Virus record (IMG/VR): IMGVR_UViG_3300013137_000038
Location: 1 to 41,683 of that record
Length of the DNA: 41,683 nt
Source: a virus
Reading direction: 5' to 3' (one strand)
The position numbers and the translations under genes were made by a program. Numbering within the stretch: position 1 is the stretch's first letter; each line of letters starts with the position of its first letter. Below, one piece after another: positions 1-8,568 of this stretch. The notes under the pieces were generated by a model, which saw only the letters and a program-made list of their open reading frames with translations, made no database searches and was not told the DNA's origin.

Positions 1-1463
1 CTGTTTATATTGCTACCATCGTAGCAATGATATTGAAGAATGTTGATTTCTATCTAATTCCACCAAGAATGTCTATTAGTAATGTTATAGCCATATTAGT
101 TAATTCGGATATAAATATTCTATTTACATCATCAAATGTTGCAGAATATCGTGTATCAAATACATTAGCTAGTTATCCGTGTTATAAACTATCTTATAAT
201 ATCGATAACAATGGTATAAATTATACTAAAAGTACAGAATTATCTAGTAAATTAGATATAGATCTGATTAGGCAAATGATATTAGTCATAAATAATAGTA
301 CTTATAAAGCATCTGATGTTGAAAATATCGTAGTTCGTGATTTCAAAATCATAAATAGAGAACGTGAAATAGGTATATTCTCATCTAGTACAGATTCTAT
401 TTATCCAAAATGTGTTTATTTTAGAGATGAAGAAATTGTTAAAGCAATTTTAACATTAGCTGATTCTGATTTATTACCAGAATTACAATCTAAAAAAATA
501 TATTCTGAAGTAGAATTTGCCAATGCTCCTATATGGACTATATTATGGCCTTTATATTCTGGAGCAACGTTTGCCTTTAACATGGATGAAGCAGATATAG
601 TAATAACAAACAGTAGTAAATTTGAACAAACTTGGACACAAATAACCAAGCATGTTTATGATATCAGAATTATAGGAAAACTATTATTTAAAAACTGGCT
701 TGACTGGTTATTCAGAATAATAACACGACACAAACTAAAAACTTATTTTAATTCTGATGTGAAAAAAGAAGCAATCATTATACTGAATGCAACTTTATCA
801 CCAAGGATAATGAAAACTATTGTTGGTTACTTACCATTATATACTACATACGGTGTGCAAGAAACTAATCAAATAATTGCAGTAAATAACTATTCTTCTT
901 TTGAACATACAAAGAATAATTGTGTTGGAGAACCATTACATTCTATAAATGTAAGTTTGAGAGAAGGAGTGTTAAACAAAGGAGAAGGTAGTATTGTTAT
1001 AGCTACAGAACTAACCTCTAAATTTACTGAATTAGAAAAAGGAAGATATTATGATACACAAGACCATGGTTCTTTAGAAGTTTATAAAGGTAAAACTTTA
1101 CTTTTTATATATGGTAAACTTAAATATGCTATTAAGAATGATCCTCATGTTGGCAGTAATTATGAAAACATAGAGAGAATATTAAAGAATATACCATATA
1201 TAAAAGAAGTACTACTTTACAAAAATGAAGAAGATCTACATATAATTGTATATCCTAATACTGATATTGTACAAATTGCAAAATTTGATTTAATTGATTT
1301 TAAAAATTTTATAAAATCTTATAAAACCTATGTAAATATAGCATATGGTTTTGATTTTGTAAAAGATGTAAAATTAGTTTTTGTTGATTTTGCAAAAACA
1401 CATACTGGTAAGATTAAGAAAATATTCTATACTCTTGCCAAGGATTTAACAAACGATCTTTAA
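1..1463 (+). CDS. ANL-superfamily adenylate-forming protein (acyl-CoA synthetase-like), 5'-partial
   Basis: The family activates carboxylic acids (fatty acids, amino acids, aryl acids) as acyl-adenylates. Numbering from the first ATG (position 27), I see an eroded phosphate loop SSSTDSIYPKC at residues 119-129 (family: SGTTGxPK), YGVQET at 275-280 (family YGxTE), YYDTQDHGSLE around 341-351 (family YxTGD, Asp346 kept), YGKLKYAIK (family GRxKDxIK) and a C-terminal THTGKIKK with Lys462 (the A10 catalytic-lysine motif). The frame stays open to position 3 and the extra residues (VYIATIVA) continue a typical N-terminal helix, so the gene very probably starts left of the window; ATG 27 is probably not the start. 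The N-terminal A3 loop is the worst-preserved motif, so activity is uncertain. Stop TAA at 1461. A 1.6-kb non-coding stretch follows. Substrate cannot be told from sequence. Confidence 0.8.
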   Translation, partial: VYIATIVAMILKNVDFYLIPPRMSISNVIAILVNSDINILFTSSNVAEYRVSNTLASYPCYKLSYNIDNNGINYTKSTELSSKLDIDLIRQMILVINNSTYKASDVENIVVRDFKIINREREIGIFSSSTDSIYPKCVYFRDEEIVKAILTLADSDLLPELQSKKIYSEVEFANAPIWTILWPLYSGATFAFNMDEADIVITNSSKFEQTWTQITKHVYDIRIIGKLLFKNWLDWLFRIITRHKLKTYFNSDVKKEAIIILNATLSPRIMKTIVGYLPLYTTYGVQETNQIIAVNNYSSFEHTKNNCVGEPLHSINVSLREGVLNKGEGSIVIATELTSKFTELEKGRYYDTQDHGSLEVYKGKTLLFIYGKLKYAIKNDPHVGSNYENIERILKNIPYIKEVLLYKNEEDLHIIVYPNTDIVQIAKFDLIDFKNFIKSYKTYVNIAYGFDFVKDVKLVFVDFAKTHTGKIKKIFYTLAKDLTNDL

Positions 1464-3052
1464 TGTTATTTAATATATTACGTAGCTGTGAATTGCTACT
1501 CGACCAGAGTGTCAAAACCTTTAAGGAACTGTGGGTGAAAACCCCATCTCCATACGGGGATTAACAGGAAATGGTTGGGTGTATTATTATAACTAATAAG
1601 AAGTCATTCACTCTTTCTAAGACTTAATCGTCTTAATGAACTCATCTAACTGCAAGGGTTGCAGAAGTAACTATGATTCAAGTTAGAATGTCAACAGAGC
1701 AGGACTGAAGTCAATACAAAACGCCAACATTCTTTGAAACATGCATGGAGAAGATGTTTGGTATGTATACTCGTTACGCTTTATTAACCCTGTCAGGTTA
1801 GTAAAGACAGTCTAATAGAAACAAACATGAGTAGCGGAAAGGGTGGAATTCCCTGGTTCAAAAAATTCTCTGTTAAGGCTACCGAAGAAACGCTAGATAT
1901 ACAGTAACAAGGCCCGTGGGAGGAAAAGATTCTTTCGACTAGATGCGAAGATGACGTTTTTTTGTGGAGGTTTGTACATAGGTACAATGGGAAAGGAATA
2001 CAAGATATCTAGATCCCTTGAAATGTGGAATTATAGGGTGACGTACGTACTTACGGGAACATAAAAAGTACAACTACTTCTATCATTTAATGGAGTGATA
2101 GGTTAAAATGAGATCTAACCCCTATCTACGCTAGTTGACGTAAAACAAATATGCAAAGCATTTTTGAAGATAGGAATAATCATGAATAGTAGCATTAATA
2201 TTGTCTTTGTTGGGTCTTACATAAAACTCAAAGTAATCGTAATTCCAAGAGAAATTATAACATGCACCAACATCTTGTTATAATATAGTTCAAAGGAAGC
2301 CCATCGTAATTGGGATGCCTTTAGGCTTCGTGGTTTAAATCCACCATTGAAATGAGAAATAACCTTAGATAATTAATTGGACAATACGAATTTTCCATAA
2401 TTACATGTCAGATTCTGGAGTGTGTAGTTTAAAAACCAATAGTCTTAAGGATGAGTTGGATATTACACAGTGACAGACAGCCTAATTAGTCACCTTAGCA
2501 TTGACTCTTTGTAGGGGGCGAAACCTACACTGTTATATTCACTATTATATATGAGTACATGTGTGAAATCGAAATTGGTAGTATAATTCCATTATTATAC
2601 CCAAATCTACTTAATTTCAAAAAAATTATCAACAATTTTTAGATTTTATCAAGTAGACGTTAGAGCCTGTTGTGAAAGACAGGAGTAAATAGCACTACTT
2701 ATAATAATAGGACATAATATATACAGATACCAATACTTTTTAAAGTAAAACACGATAACGTAAAGCGACTGAAGCTGATCGCATTAATGTAAAATATTGT
2801 TCCATAAAGCAAAGCAGGGAATTAATCATACATGCTTGCAAACCCGAAGCATGCTGAGTAGTTAGCGTAAACCCATCTGAGTAGCTATTGGAGTGTACTT
2901 AACAGTTGCTTACAAGGTCTACCGATATAAGTAGCAAACTTATAAAGATAAAAACATTAGAGTAAAACAGGGGCTACGATTACCTGGTGTAATTATGTTC
3001 TCGTAAGTTAACTACTCGTGCTTCAACACAAGCTTATTTAAAATTTAGTACC
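1464..3052 (+). ncRNA. 1.6-kb ORF-free, hairpin-rich region: candidate large structured RNA(s)
   Basis: No convincing ORF lies here on either strand, in a genome that is otherwise tightly packed. The sequence looks less A/T-biased than the surrounding genes and is rich in perfect hairpins: GTAGC/GCTAC (1482-1499); GGGT-GAAA-ACCC with a GNRA loop (1533-1544); TTATAACA/TGTTATAA (2255-2283); GAAGCC/GGCTTC (2296-2329), directly followed by GTGG/CCAC with a 7-nt loop (2330-2344); TGTAGG/CCTACA (2510-2529); CATGCTT/AAGCATG (2831-2853). I could not assemble a complete tRNA, a group I core or a group II domain V. Phages are known to carry large ornate RNAs (GOLLD, ROOL), often in tRNA-rich regions; I cannot match their consensus by eye. 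Strand is assumed from flanking genes. There may be more than one RNA. The 3' boundary is uncertain because the next ATG at 3053 follows directly. Confidence 0.45.
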
Positions 3053-3487
3053 ATGCAAATAAAAATCTTTGACAAATATAGTCTTATTAAAAGTGATATT
3101 CCAACAATTATCAATAAAAAGACTATTGTGAAAGATGTTAATGTTGGTGGGATAAAACTTTCATATAAAGTTTCAACAGTAAAAGCATTAGTATTGAATA
3201 TTTTCAATAAACAATACATAATACCTATTTCTTTAAAGCCTAAAGATAAAACGAATATAACGTTTCTTAGACCTTATAAGAATAAGTGGGATGTAGGAAG
3301 AAATAAATTACCTCGTTGTTTATGGGGTAAAACTACTGATCCTTTAACAAACTTATGGATAGAATTAGAATTAGATTATACAGATCTTGATTCTGGTGAA
3401 GTCATGTGTAAAAGGGAGATCAGAGATACTAATATTACTAAACATCTTTCAAAGAACAAACAATTGTTCTATATTATAAAAAAATAA
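3053..3487 (+). CDS. Hypothetical protein, 144 aa
   Basis: Unrecognised. The protein is basic and lysine-rich, with a predicted beta-rich pattern in the first 80 residues (alternating hydrophobics around VNVGGIKLSYKVSTVKALVL) and an acidic patch ELELDYTDLDSGE near residues 103-115 before a basic C-terminus. No signal peptide, membrane segment or metal motif is visible. It starts at ATG 3053, preceded by A/T-rich sequence without a Shine-Dalgarno, and directly abuts the structured RNA region; transcription from that region into this gene is plausible. It ends with TAA 34 nt before the next gene, so the two may be cotranscribed. Confidence 0.7.
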   Translation: MQIKIFDKYSLIKSDIPTIINKKTIVKDVNVGGIKLSYKVSTVKALVLNIFNKQYIIPISLKPKDKTNITFLRPYKNKWDVGRNKLPRCLWGKTTDPLTNLWIELELDYTDLDSGEVMCKREIRDTNITKHLSKNKQLFYIIKK

Positions 3488-3521
3488 CAATCATTATTAA
3501 TCAAAATTAAATTCACGTATT

Positions 3522-4007
3522 ATGTCAAAAGAAAATTCAAAAAAGGAACTGTTAAATTTAACTATAACAGTAGAAGAAATTGCACAAGCTGCAAGAAACG
3601 CAACAAGTCTTGAGGATGCTGTTTTTGAAATAGAAACACTTAATCCCAGAAAAATCGTTCTTGAACAAGAAATATTTACCTTAAAAACTACTCCTGTAAA
3701 TGACAGAGTAAAAGGTAAGAAAAAAGAGTTTGCTCCTAAAGTAGTAGGAGTTGTATCTCTTGTGGTAGAATCATTATCAACTGTTGGAAAGTCTGATAGT
3801 GTAACTATCAACGGTACTCTTGATGTACCAAAAAAAGGTAACAGAGTCGTAAAACTTGACGAATGTCTTTTCTCATCTATGGATGATGCAAAAGCAGTTG
3901 CAAGAGTATTAACTGAGATTGAACTTGAAAAAGCACAATCTATTGCTGATGAAGCAATGGAAGCTGTAAACTTCATCAAGAAACAACTCGAAGACGATCG
4001 TTTCTAA
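3522..4007 (+). CDS. Hypothetical acidic protein, 161 aa
   Basis: Unrecognised. Both ends look helical: an N-terminal amphipathic stretch around VEEIAQAARNATSLEDAV and a C-terminal helix rich in Glu and Ala ending in an acidic DDRF tail. The middle (about residues 70-115) has a valine-rich, beta-type pattern (VVGVVSLVVESLSTVG). No enzymatic motif is visible. The gene has better-balanced codons than its A/T-rich neighbours, as often seen in well-expressed small phage proteins (inference). It is followed by a structured spacer that ends in a terminator-like hairpin at 4088-4112, which suggests it is the last gene of its transcript. Confidence 0.75.
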   Translation: MSKENSKKELLNLTITVEEIAQAARNATSLEDAVFEIETLNPRKIVLEQEIFTLKTTPVNDRVKGKKKEFAPKVVGVVSLVVESLSTVGKSDSVTINGTLDVPKKGNRVVKLDECLFSSMDDAKAVARVLTEIELEKAQSIADEAMEAVNFIKKQLEDDRF

Positions 4008-4141
4008 GATATACTGAGGTTGCTACTTCAAGTATAACCGTAGGTTTATCCTTAAACCTCCATCAGCGATGAGTGGACTAAAGGCATGGTGAGTGGTGCT
4101 CACCTTCTTTTTATTATCAATCACAAATCAATATTTACATC
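4008..4141 (+). other. Structured intergenic spacer between two hypothetical genes
   Basis: The spacer is 134 nt and contains two separate hairpins: AGGTTT/AAACCT around 4032-4053 and the terminator-like stem annotated separately at 4088. An additional GGTT/AACC pairing across 4016-4031 would make a compact fold. No ORF is visible. It may simply be a 3' UTR with terminator, or a small processed RNA. Confidence 0.4.
4088..4112 (+). terminator. Rho-independent terminator
   Basis: A GGTGAG stem (4088-4093) pairs with CTCACC (4099-4104) around a 5-nt loop and is followed by a T-rich tract TTCTTTTT (4105-4112). It sits after the 161-aa gene and before the membrane protein gene at 4142. Confidence 0.7.
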
Positions 4142-4735
4142 ATGAAAAGACAATCAATTGTTTATTTATTGATGTTTGCATTTGCGTTTGTTTTACCTTC
4201 GTTCTCATTTCCCGATAAGGATGATGGGAAAGGTCCAGTTGAAAAAACAATGCAATCAACATCTGATAGTGTAGTTGTGAGTGTCAGATTCAACAATCCA
4301 AAGCTTGTGGTAACACAAGGCGATTTGGAGAAGAAGTTTGAGTCACAAACACTAAGTAATAAAGAACTCATTGATGTAGTAAAAGGGTTTAATGAAAATT
4401 TCACTAAACTCAACGAACTACAAGAAAGGAGGTATGAGTTAGCAATAACTCAATTACAGCGACGAACAGGTTACTCTGTTGGTCAAATTAATAAGTTTAT
4501 TTTACAGAAACAACGATTAAATACAGTTATAGCTATAGGTCTTTTATTCTATGCCTTAATACTACTATTAATCTATAATACATCATATCGTAGGTTAAAA
4601 GAAAATATTAATGGTTTATTATTATTAGCGATATCTGTAGGAGCGTTTACCCTTGTAAGTATGGCCTTATTCTGGCCAATGCTCATGGGACAAGACTACA
4701 TTTTGTTTTATAAATTAAGCAATCTTCCTTTCTAA
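4142..4735 (+). CDS. Membrane protein with signal sequence, coiled region and two C-terminal TM segments
   Basis: Unrecognised as a family. Residues 1-22 form a typical signal sequence (basic MKRQ, then a hydrophobic run ending SFSFP). Residues about 60-125 are helical and charged, consistent with a coiled segment. Two hydrophobic stretches near residues 130-149 (TVIAIGLLFYALILLLIY) and 156-178 (LLLLAISVGAFTLVSMALFW) are likely transmembrane. It lies 2 nt upstream of the next gene and about 770 nt upstream of the lysozyme-like gene at 5504, so a holin or spanin-type lysis role is possible. That is context only; the fold does not identify it. It starts at ATG 4142 after a terminator, so a promoter should lie in 4113-4141. 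Confidence 0.7.
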   Translation: MKRQSIVYLLMFAFAFVLPSFSFPDKDDGKGPVEKTMQSTSDSVVVSVRFNNPKLVVTQGDLEKKFESQTLSNKELIDVVKGFNENFTKLNELQERRYELAITQLQRRTGYSVGQINKFILQKQRLNTVIAIGLLFYALILLLIYNTSYRRLKENINGLLLLAISVGAFTLVSMALFWPMLMGQDYILFYKLSNLPF

Positions 4736-6508: not shown

Positions 6509-6571
6509 ATAAGGGGGAATAACGAAAGTCCAGGTTTAATAGACCGGAAGTGATAATTAGTGCCCCCTTAT
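6509..6571 (+). promoter_or_regulatory. Structured leader upstream of class II ribonucleotide reductase (candidate cis-regulatory RNA)
   Basis: ATAAGGGGG (6509-6517) pairs perfectly with CCCCCTTAT (6563-6571), a 9-bp closing stem. Inside, TCC-A-GGT pairs with ACCGGA (about 6529-6548, one bulged A), leaving a large internal loop of about 11 by 14 nt. The element ends 14 nt before the RNR start codon. A stem plus purine-rich internal loop next to a start codon resembles a riboswitch or attenuator. I recall that a candidate motif named nrdJ RNA has been described from metagenomes upstream of such genes, but I cannot check its consensus. The classical AdoCbl riboswitch boxes are absent. Confidence 0.5.
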
Positions 6572-6585
6572 TCAATTTATGTAAT

Positions 6586-8568
6586 ATGACGTTTAAACTT
6601 AATGAAGAATTTATTAATAAGTATAAAAATATAGAGCCAGCATTTGGCTTTAATGGTCTTGGTAAAATAGCTTATTTAAGAACATACAGCAGATTAAAGG
6701 AAGATGGTACAAATGAAGAATGGTATGAAACTATTAGACGTGTAGTCGAAGGTACATACTCTATTCAGAAGGATCATATTCTTAAATACGAATTAGGTTG
6801 GGATGATGACAAAGGTCAGGAATCTGCCCAAGAAATGTATGATAGAATTTTTAACATGAAATTTTTACCACCTGGTAGAGGTTTATATGCTATGGGTTCT
6901 AATATCATAACTGAAAAAGGTTTATATGCAGCTTTAAATAATTGCGCATTTGTATCTACTGAAATTATAAATACAGACTATAGTAAACCGTTTGAATTTA
7001 TGATGGACTTTTCTATGCTTGGTGTAGGTGTAGGTTTCGATGTTAAAGGTGCTGGTAAATTAACCATTTTAAAGCCTTCTAACGAGACTTTAACTTTTGA
7101 CATACCTGATACTAGGGAAGGTTGGGTTCGTTCATTAGGAATGATCTTAGATGCCTTCTTCAAAGGATTTCCAATACCTCAATTTAATTATACTTTGTTA
7201 CGACCTAAAGGTGCCTTAATTCGTACCTTTGGTGGTAAGTCAGCAGGTTCAGAACCTCTACGTAAACTACATACTCAAATCGAACATGTTTTGTCCAAAA
7301 ATATTGGTAATAAATTATCTGCAGAGAATATTGTAGATATTATGAATATGATTGGTGTTTGTGTAGTAGCTGGTAATGTTAGGCGTACTGCTCAAATTGT
7401 ATTTGGTGATGCTACAGATAAAGAGTATCTAAAACTCAAAGATTATCAATGGGATGAAGATACAGAAAGTTATGTAGGTACTAAAATACATAGAGCAGAA
7501 TATGGTTGGGCTTCTAATAACAGTGTATTTGCAACAATAGGTCAAGATTATACTGAAGTTGCTAATCAAACCGCTATTAATGGTGAACCAGGTTATATGT
7601 GGCTTGACAATGCACAAAAGTATAGTCGTATGGATGGTAATGTAGATAACAAAGACCACCGTGCATTAGGTGGTAATCCATGTCTTGAACAATCATTAGA
7701 ATCTTATGAAATGTGTTGTTTAGTAGAAGTATTCCCAACTAAACATGAATCATTTGAAGATTTTAAACGTAGTCTTAAGTTTGCTTATTTATATGCTAAA
7801 ACTGTAACACTTGGTAATACTCACTGGGTTGAAACTAATAGAGTACAATTACGTAACAGACGTATTGGCACATCTATTAGTGGTATAGCCCAATTTATTG
7901 ATAAATACGGAATAGAAAAATTAAAACAATGGCTTGTAGAAGGTTATAAAGTTATACAGAATTATGATGATATTTACAGTGAATGGTTAGCTATACCTAA
8001 AAGTATTAAAACCACTTCAATTAAACCATCAGGTACTGTTTCATTATTAGCAGGTGTAACACCTGGTATGCATTATCCAGAAAGCAATTATTATATAAGG
8101 AGAATTAGAATATCCATAAATTCTGATTTAGTTCCTCATATAGAAAAAGCTGGTTATCATGTAGAACCAGATATTATGGCACCAAATGATACGTTAGTAA
8201 TTGAAATACCTGTTGCAATTGAAAGTGTACGTACTATTAAAGATATAAGTATGTGGGAGCAATTAATGCTTGCTTCATTCTTACAGGAATATTGGTCTGA
8301 CAACCAAGTTTCATGTACAATTAGTTTTAGTAAAAAGGAAAAACTTCAAATACCATTTGCTCTCAATTACTTCCAGTATAAACTGAAGGGTGTAAGTTTC
8401 TTACCTAAAACAGAAAAATATCAATATGCGCAAATGCCATATGAAGAAATAACTAAAGAAAAATATGATGAAATTATTCAGAATATTAAACCTTTGATTA
8501 TTGAAAATGTTTCAGAGAAGAGTACACCAGAAATGTATTGTAATAATGACAGTTGTCAAATTTTATAA
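6586..8568 (+). CDS. nrdJ: Class II (adenosylcobalamin-dependent) ribonucleoside-triphosphate reductase
   Basis: Reduces ribonucleotides to deoxyribonucleotides using a thiyl radical generated with vitamin B12 coenzyme, supplying dNTPs for phage replication. It matches the monomeric Lactobacillus-type enzyme. Counting from ATG 6586: GRGLYAMGS then Cys120 in NNCAF (active-site disulfide partner), NPCLEQ with Cys366 (thiyl) and Glu368, Cys377 or Cys378 (second disulfide partner), PSGTVSLLAGVTPGMHYP (substrate loop) and the C-terminal redox pair Cys652/Cys657 (CNNDSC). All catalytic residues are therefore present. At 660 residues it is shorter than the roughly 740 of the Lactobacillus enzyme. 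A GTG at 6550 is in frame but lies inside the structured leader, so ATG 6586 is preferred. The enzyme depends on host or gut corrinoids and a host thioredoxin-type reductant, since none is encoded nearby. Confidence 0.95.
   Translation: MTFKLNEEFINKYKNIEPAFGFNGLGKIAYLRTYSRLKEDGTNEEWYETIRRVVEGTYSIQKDHILKYELGWDDDKGQESAQEMYDRIFNMKFLPPGRGLYAMGSNIITEKGLYAALNNCAFVSTEIINTDYSKPFEFMMDFSMLGVGVGFDVKGAGKLTILKPSNETLTFDIPDTREGWVRSLGMILDAFFKGFPIPQFNYTLLRPKGALIRTFGGKSAGSEPLRKLHTQIEHVLSKNIGNKLSAENIVDIMNMIGVCVVAGNVRRTAQIVFGDATDKEYLKLKDYQWDEDTESYVGTKIHRAEYGWASNNSVFATIGQDYTEVANQTAINGEPGYMWLDNAQKYSRMDGNVDNKDHRALGGNPCLEQSLESYEMCCLVEVFPTKHESFEDFKRSLKFAYLYAKTVTLGNTHWVETNRVQLRNRRIGTSISGIAQFIDKYGIEKLKQWLVEGYKVIQNYDDIYSEWLAIPKSIKTTSIKPSGTVSLLAGVTPGMHYPESNYYIRRIRISINSDLVPHIEKAGYHVEPDIMAPNDTLVIEIPVAIESVRTIKDISMWEQLMLASFLQEYWSDNQVSCTISFSKKEKLQIPFALNYFQYKLKGVSFLPKTEKYQYAQMPYEEITKEKYDEIIQNIKPLIIENVSEKSTPEMYCNNDSCQIL

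Follow-up and report, generated by a model that had tools for sequence, protein, structure and literature searches.

What occupies the one long stretch without genes in a crAss-like phage fragment: a structured RNA, a regulatory leader, a DNA element, an intron or a decayed gene? The window, meaning the whole 41,683 nt of the IMG/VR virus record analysed, has the gene set of a crAss-like phage and is a fragment of one. A ribonucleotide reductase (RNR), exonuclease, DNA polymerase, DnaB-like helicase, AAA_24 ATPase and primase were identified in it with PHROG and Pfam, and the primase is 39–45% identical to gut Crassvirales primases among the best records listed. The RNR in this replication region (6550–8568) is of Class II (B12-dependent).

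The block and its two neighbours are arranged as follows:

27..1463, + strand: upstream neighbour, 478 aa, a divergent relative of the ANL superfamily (AMP-forming acyl/aryl-CoA ligase), assigned from Pfam domains in homologues and a MenE profile match
1464..3052, + strand: the entire large structured RNA region, 1589 nt, free of genes in 14 syntenic records, with homology shown by nhmmer and no codon periodicity
3053..3487, + strand: downstream neighbour, a conserved 144-aa protein, used as synteny anchor

A conserved non-coding block

Positions 1464–3052 are, as first proposed, the largest gene-free block: in the ORF list they form the only one in the window above about 170 nt, and their 1589 nt are about ten times the next largest gap (about 167 nt). 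Between the stop of ORF 27–1463 and the start of ORF 3053–3487 the plus strand holds no ORF of at least 60 aa; the minus strand holds one chance ORF of 64 aa. G+C content rises from 0.23–0.28 in the surroundings to 0.31–0.39 in the gap. No clear promoter or terminator marks the RNA in the window's own subgroup (A, below).

The region is not protein-coding. Between the window and its close relative L009, mismatches in the gap fall evenly on the three codon positions (0.31/0.33/0.32) and 4 of 27 indels have a length divisible by three, whereas the adjacent upstream gene gives 0.33/0.23/0.45 and two of two. The longest open stretch in the gap is 71 codons, and no frameshifted coding remnants, the alternative raised alongside the original RNA proposal, were found. 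Identity over the region is 68%, against 66–74% for the flanking genes. Although non-coding, the RNA is thus conserved as well as the genes are, a sign of strong selection acting on the RNA itself.

Relatives were reached by several routes. An RNR protein search led to two records (L002 and L003), each with a gene-free gap of 1.58–1.66 kb at the corresponding position, flanked by homologues of the same pair of genes; blastn blocks link these gaps to that of the window at 70–83% identity, while the upstream neighbour is just 24–26% identical. A profile of the three gaps detects the syntenic gaps of L009 (E 2e-94) and L007 (8e-68), both obtained solely via their DNA polymerase. The gap of L089 is matched at E 7e-135 by a profile of six gaps not containing it. 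L089, L022 (the same contig as L011) and L027 (found via a DNA motif) complete subgroup A.

In subgroup B, which comprises six divergent records (L090–L095), the gap measures 1.35–1.66 kb and is followed by a homologue of the 144-aa gene; the gene that precedes it has the size of the upstream neighbour. Matches of the gap profile to this subgroup are weak, fall in the same pair of blocks (E from 1e-5 to 0.03) and are absent from L093. L095 belongs to a contig from a Clostridiales MAG and shares 97% identity with L092. A search for further members by DNA motif yielded one new record with the first motif and none with two later ones, whose other matches were due to chance, and blastn of the gap against phages and plasmids gave no match.

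In all, 14 distinct records hold a gene-free gap of 1.35–2.0 kb, about the size of 16S rRNA, in the same place between the ANL-ligase-related gene and the small conserved gene, and it is present in every record in which both flanking genes were located (n = 14). The ligase relative accompanies the RNA throughout subgroup A, and in subgroup B by position and size. PF00501 is found in four of seven homologues of this neighbour (best 7e-14) and is missing from the window's own copy; its profile matches MenE (3ipl, E 4e-9), and with the window protein as sole query no relatives were found. The 144-aa protein has no Pfam or PHROG match. The subgroup B copies of the ligase-related gene look degenerate.

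Among more distant relatives, gene-free, G+C-rich gaps of 0.9–1.3 kb were also seen in L106 (7390–8701, G044), L109 (2362–3261, G042) and L107 (7530–8448, G032). They gave no profile match and could be diverged or other large RNAs.

Covarying domains and a tRNA-like block

The evidence for structure is covariation among relatives, not stability. The block had been described as dense in stable hairpins. This stands as a description, down to the GNRA-capped stem that had been singled out, but not as an excess over chance: folding energies of single sequences in 200-nt windows give z from –3.7 to +1.1, and coding regions of the same phage fold equally well. Hairpin density is therefore a true description but no evidence alone, and single-sequence folding was rejected as evidence of structure. 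The elements read from the sequence or from alignments are:

1533..1544, + strand: GNRA (GAAA) capped stem GGGU-GAAA-ACCC, read from the sequence; a similar hairpin in L009, not kept further out
1685..1779, + strand: domain 1, a long covarying hairpin with a conserved GAAACAUGCAUGG apex and nested helices (alignment A5)
1827..1892, + strand: domain 2, a GGGUGGAAUUCCC hairpin within a 5-bp helix; more conserved than any other element, and found in all 14 relatives and both subgroups
2283..2354, + strand: domain 3, a tRNA-like block (alignment A7)
2300–2314, + strand: hairpin CCCA-UCGUAAU-UGGG, part of domain 3
2317–2326, + strand: GCC-UUUA-GGC arm, part of domain 3
2330–2344, + strand: T-arm GUGG-UUUAAAU-CCAC, part of domain 3
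2660..2698, + strand: domain 4, a GUGAAA hexaloop hairpin (2666–2683), then conserved AAUAGCACUA (alignment A8)
3011..3030, + strand: conserved 3'-terminal segment around CUACUCGUGCUUCAACAC (six-sequence alignment), about 25 nt before the next start codon

Covariation, which the original prediction had put forward as the check on its RNA reading, is present among the relatives. With the four window domains aligned over 7–8 relatives, 34 of 46 pairs are changed on both sides; in each domain the covariation score lies above that of every one of 500 shuffles, and sliding the partners by 1–3 columns makes it collapse. The controls throughout are shuffles, sliding and one coding control, not R-scape; the sequences number 14 distinct ones in all, and the global fold outside the tested domains is provisional.

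Domain 1 has 15 of 18 pairs changed on both sides (score 0.560 against 0.248 when shuffled, 0/500), and domain 4 has 5 of 6 compensatory pairs (0.937 against 0.308, 0/500). In the outer helix of domain 2 all five pairs are compensatory and 100% paired (13 sequences, both subgroups), and the GGTGRRATTCC motif with its flanking helix occurs in 14/14 relatives across both subgroups. A covariance model of domain 2 (R1) scores 78 bits in the window and 46–70 bits in eight further records, each time at the syntenic gap. All of these records except L095, the near-copy of L092, are in the training alignment, so the scores test consistency and do not count as independent evidence. In the 3'-terminal segment, GCTTCAAYA is present in all six aligned sequences.

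A full-length consensus fold of L090, L091, L092 and L095 has 321 pairs with 97% of cells paired, and 69 double-changed pairs against 4–8 in slid controls. Its 5' and 3' ends pair, closing the molecule, and a U-run then lies at the 3' end. In RNA sets of three sequences, double-changed pairs make up 20–28% (environmental) and 23–31% (gut, below), against 8–9% for RNR genes at similar identity; each of these folds was optimised on its own alignment, so that the comparison with the coding control is all that counts. Alignment folding favours the plus strand, but it does so for the coding control too, and this preference was not used.

Domain 3 resembles part of a tRNA. It runs from the UCGUAAU-loop hairpin through the short GCC/GGC arm and a CUUC to the T-arm, with 8 of 11 pairs compensatory and 100% of cells paired where both sides have letters; the alignment behind these figures (A7) omits long insertions that some relatives carry in the arm loop. 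Twelve of the 14 relatives have the T-arm, which is canonical in L089 (GUGAG-UUCGAAU-CUCAC). As in tRNA and tmRNA, a UUNRAAU loop sits on a stem of 4–5 bp, here with the short arm and CUUC before it; unlike in these, the window RNA lacks a D-arm, a canonical acceptor stem and a CCA end, none of which was seen in the block, and T-loop position 56 is not conserved (C, U, A or G). No tRNA was called by ARAGORN or Rfam in the RNAs of the window and its homologues, and the T-arm of L089 alone gave a weak match to the tmRNA model in Rfam (E 3e-4, below the cut-off). Around the T-arm block, a helix resembling an acceptor stem (UUCAA/UUGAA) can be drawn by eye for the window, L009, L007 and L027, but it does not suit every relative and was left out. 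Read conservatively, the block is a T-loop motif serving as a structural module; it may possibly descend from a tRNA.

Known RNA families and the gut gaps

Across the 14 records the RNA keeps its place, its length class and its secondary structure, and it belongs to no known Rfam family. Whole-Rfam scans of the window gap and its homologues found no family above the cut-off, with GOLLD, ROOL, introns, tRNA, tmRNA and riboswitches included; matches to Hrs13 and snoJ33 were sub-threshold and set aside as chance. The view that the block is no tRNA array and no group I or group II intron is thereby confirmed (ARAGORN, Rfam). Membership in GOLLD or ROOL, in turn, fails: neither the models of the two families nor the whole-Rfam scans gave a match, and the resemblance is in kind only (large, ornate, phage-borne). 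The GOLLD model (RF02032) scores nothing above 5.3 bits in the window and 21 related records, against a gathering score of 150. The ROOL model (RF03087) matches 0 of 22 records; no positive control matched there, so the weight lies on the whole-Rfam scans.

To our knowledge, very few large structured phage RNAs are known, and their functions are open. GOLLD is a very large, ornate RNA of phages and prophages with unknown function, 800 nt long, in whose linker tRNAs can lie (PMC12286853). The window RNA is likewise very large, ornate, phage-borne and associated with tRNA features; it differs in being about twice as long, in holding no complete tRNA, and in its fixed place before the replication genes of crAss-like phages. 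ROOL, also large, ornate, borne by phages and prophages and of unknown function, forms an RNA nanocage (PMC12286853), whereas the window RNA is 2–3 times longer and is not matched by the ROOL model. The orphan ncRNA of the lytic phage ICP1 (~800 nt, in a roughly 1-kb ORF-less gap) is the most abundant ICP1 transcript (PMC7567579). The window RNA is similarly an orphan in an ORF-less gap, in another phage group, and is likened to it by description, not sequence. No ncRNA in crAss-like phages was found described in the open-access literature.

A long non-coding gap with conserved, covarying multi-domain structure is what marks a large ornate structured phage RNA, and this is what the window holds. 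The window RNA is a new family of this known kind, larger than the named ones. The suggestion of a new large RNA family, made at the outset, is strongly supported by position in 14 records, homology, the lack of codon periodicity, compensatory changes and the lack of an Rfam match.

Annotated Suoliviridae genomes from the human gut carry unannotated gaps of 1.85–2.5 kb at the equivalent place, upstream of the replication module:

NC_055875 18887–20962: cr10_1 gap
NC_055872 53706–55625: cr118_1 gap, which belongs by position only
NC_055897 12592–14440: cr114_1 gap
NC_055894 45796–47875: cr6_1 gap
NC_055873 42136–44616: cr1_1 gap
NC_055898 47392–49596: cr115_1 gap
NC_055868 44405–46918: cr50_1 gap
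NC_055893 60882–63028: cr4_1 gap

The gaps of cr1, cr10, cr50, cr55, cr114, cr115, cr125, cr6 and cr4 are linked to one another by nucleotide similarity. Between cr114 and cr115 the indels break the frame (0/38 multiples of three), compensatory changes are found in two groups of gut gaps, and the five gut gaps scanned have no Rfam match inside. These RNAs have their position upstream of the replication module, size class and structured nature in common with the window RNA. They differ from it in that neither nhmmer profiles nor R1 match the window family, and their flanking proteins are unrelated to the window's by profile comparison. An equivalent position, not homology, is therefore reported.

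Other structured elements were seen in these and related genomes. The cr6_1 gap (1739–1849, in L100) and the cr114_1 gap (1500–1610, in L099) share a block of 80 nt at 85% identity across these genera (GAAGAACGGCUGACUCAU...CACGUUCUAGUA). It lies towards the 3' end of the gut RNA, and its fold covaries and may contain a pseudoknot. Outside the gaps, L096, L099, L100 and L101 carry several Hatchet ribozymes, RAGATH-7-associated, RAGATH-9 and RAGATH-22 RNAs and permuted tmRNAs. In Cellulophaga phage phi14:2 (NC_021806), a 1.7-kb stretch (2905–4601) whose ORFs were withdrawn in RefSeq shows by eye a tmRNA-like sequence and about 650 nt resembling another structured RNA.

Interpretation of the locus

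We consider it probable (roughly 60%) that 1464–3052 is the plus-strand gene of a giant structured non-coding RNA of a crAss-like phage clade, a discrete and compact molecule acting in trans. The main rival, which we hold to be unlikely though worth serious attention, is a giant cis-acting 5' leader of the following operon, controlling the 144-aa gene and later genes like an oversized riboswitch or thermosensor. The RNA is co-directional with both neighbours, always precedes the same gene in the environmental clade, and has its conserved 3' segment just before that gene's start codon, all of which would suit a leader. Against this, the paired ends and U-run of subgroup B could terminate the RNA before the gene, and the gut structures precede a gene unrelated by profile comparison, so that, if the RNAs are related, this gene is no constant partner. 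The leaders we know of are also far smaller than 1.35–2 kb.

A DNA element such as a replication origin, with conserved palindromes acting as DNA, would fit a place upstream of the replication module (RNR, exonuclease, DNA polymerase, DnaB, primase) and an occurrence of once per record. It is improbable because the helices are of RNA type: the compensatory changes lie in such helices, with some G–U pairs, a T-arm and a GUGAAA hexaloop. The large, ornate build might also recall a self-splicing intron or other mobile ribozyme, and gut crAss phages do carry a group I intron and small ribozymes elsewhere. This is slightly less probable still: Rfam gives no group I or group II match in the window, the block interrupts no gene but sits between two that are separate and complete in the relatives, and it keeps one fixed site in 14/14 records rather than being scattered. 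As for a decayed or recoded coding sequence, the length would suit a 500-aa gene, yet the flat codon-position substitutions, frame-breaking indels, short open stretches (71 codons at most) and compensatory pairing in four domains leave it hardly any credit.

Under the preferred reading, a free-standing RNA gene, the RNA would be released as a discrete molecule of about 1.3–2 kb, as the closing helix and U-run of subgroup B alone suggest. Its several domains would pack compactly through T-loop, GUGAAA-loop and GNRA-type contacts, and the T-arm block may be a contact site, either within the RNA itself or for a partner that binds tRNA or ribosomes. By analogy, a free-standing "ornate" phage RNA like GOLLD or ROOL would be the likeliest function. 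Both of these form RNA-only cages, and orphan RNAs of a comparable sort in other phages reach high expression or are induced at lysis (PMC12286853, PMC7567579). The RNA may act in trans during infection, as proposed for GOLLD and ROOL (PMC12286853) and the abundant ICP1 RNA (PMC7567579), perhaps as a scaffold or an assembly, possibly a homo-oligomer, in which phage molecules are housed or which engages components of host translation; oligomerisation and trans function are both suggested by the analogy.

An RNA family kept at one locus through deep phage divergence must do something important, and the structured RNAs at the equivalent locus of gut crAss phages make the question testable. More tentatively, and with the balance tilting against it, a giant structured RNA of 1.3–2.5 kb at the head of the replication region could be an ancestral and widespread component of Crassvirales, in environmental and human-gut lineages alike. 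If true, it would rank with the largest structured RNAs known from phages, and would have an RNA-scaffold role in infection by some of the most abundant viruses of the human gut.
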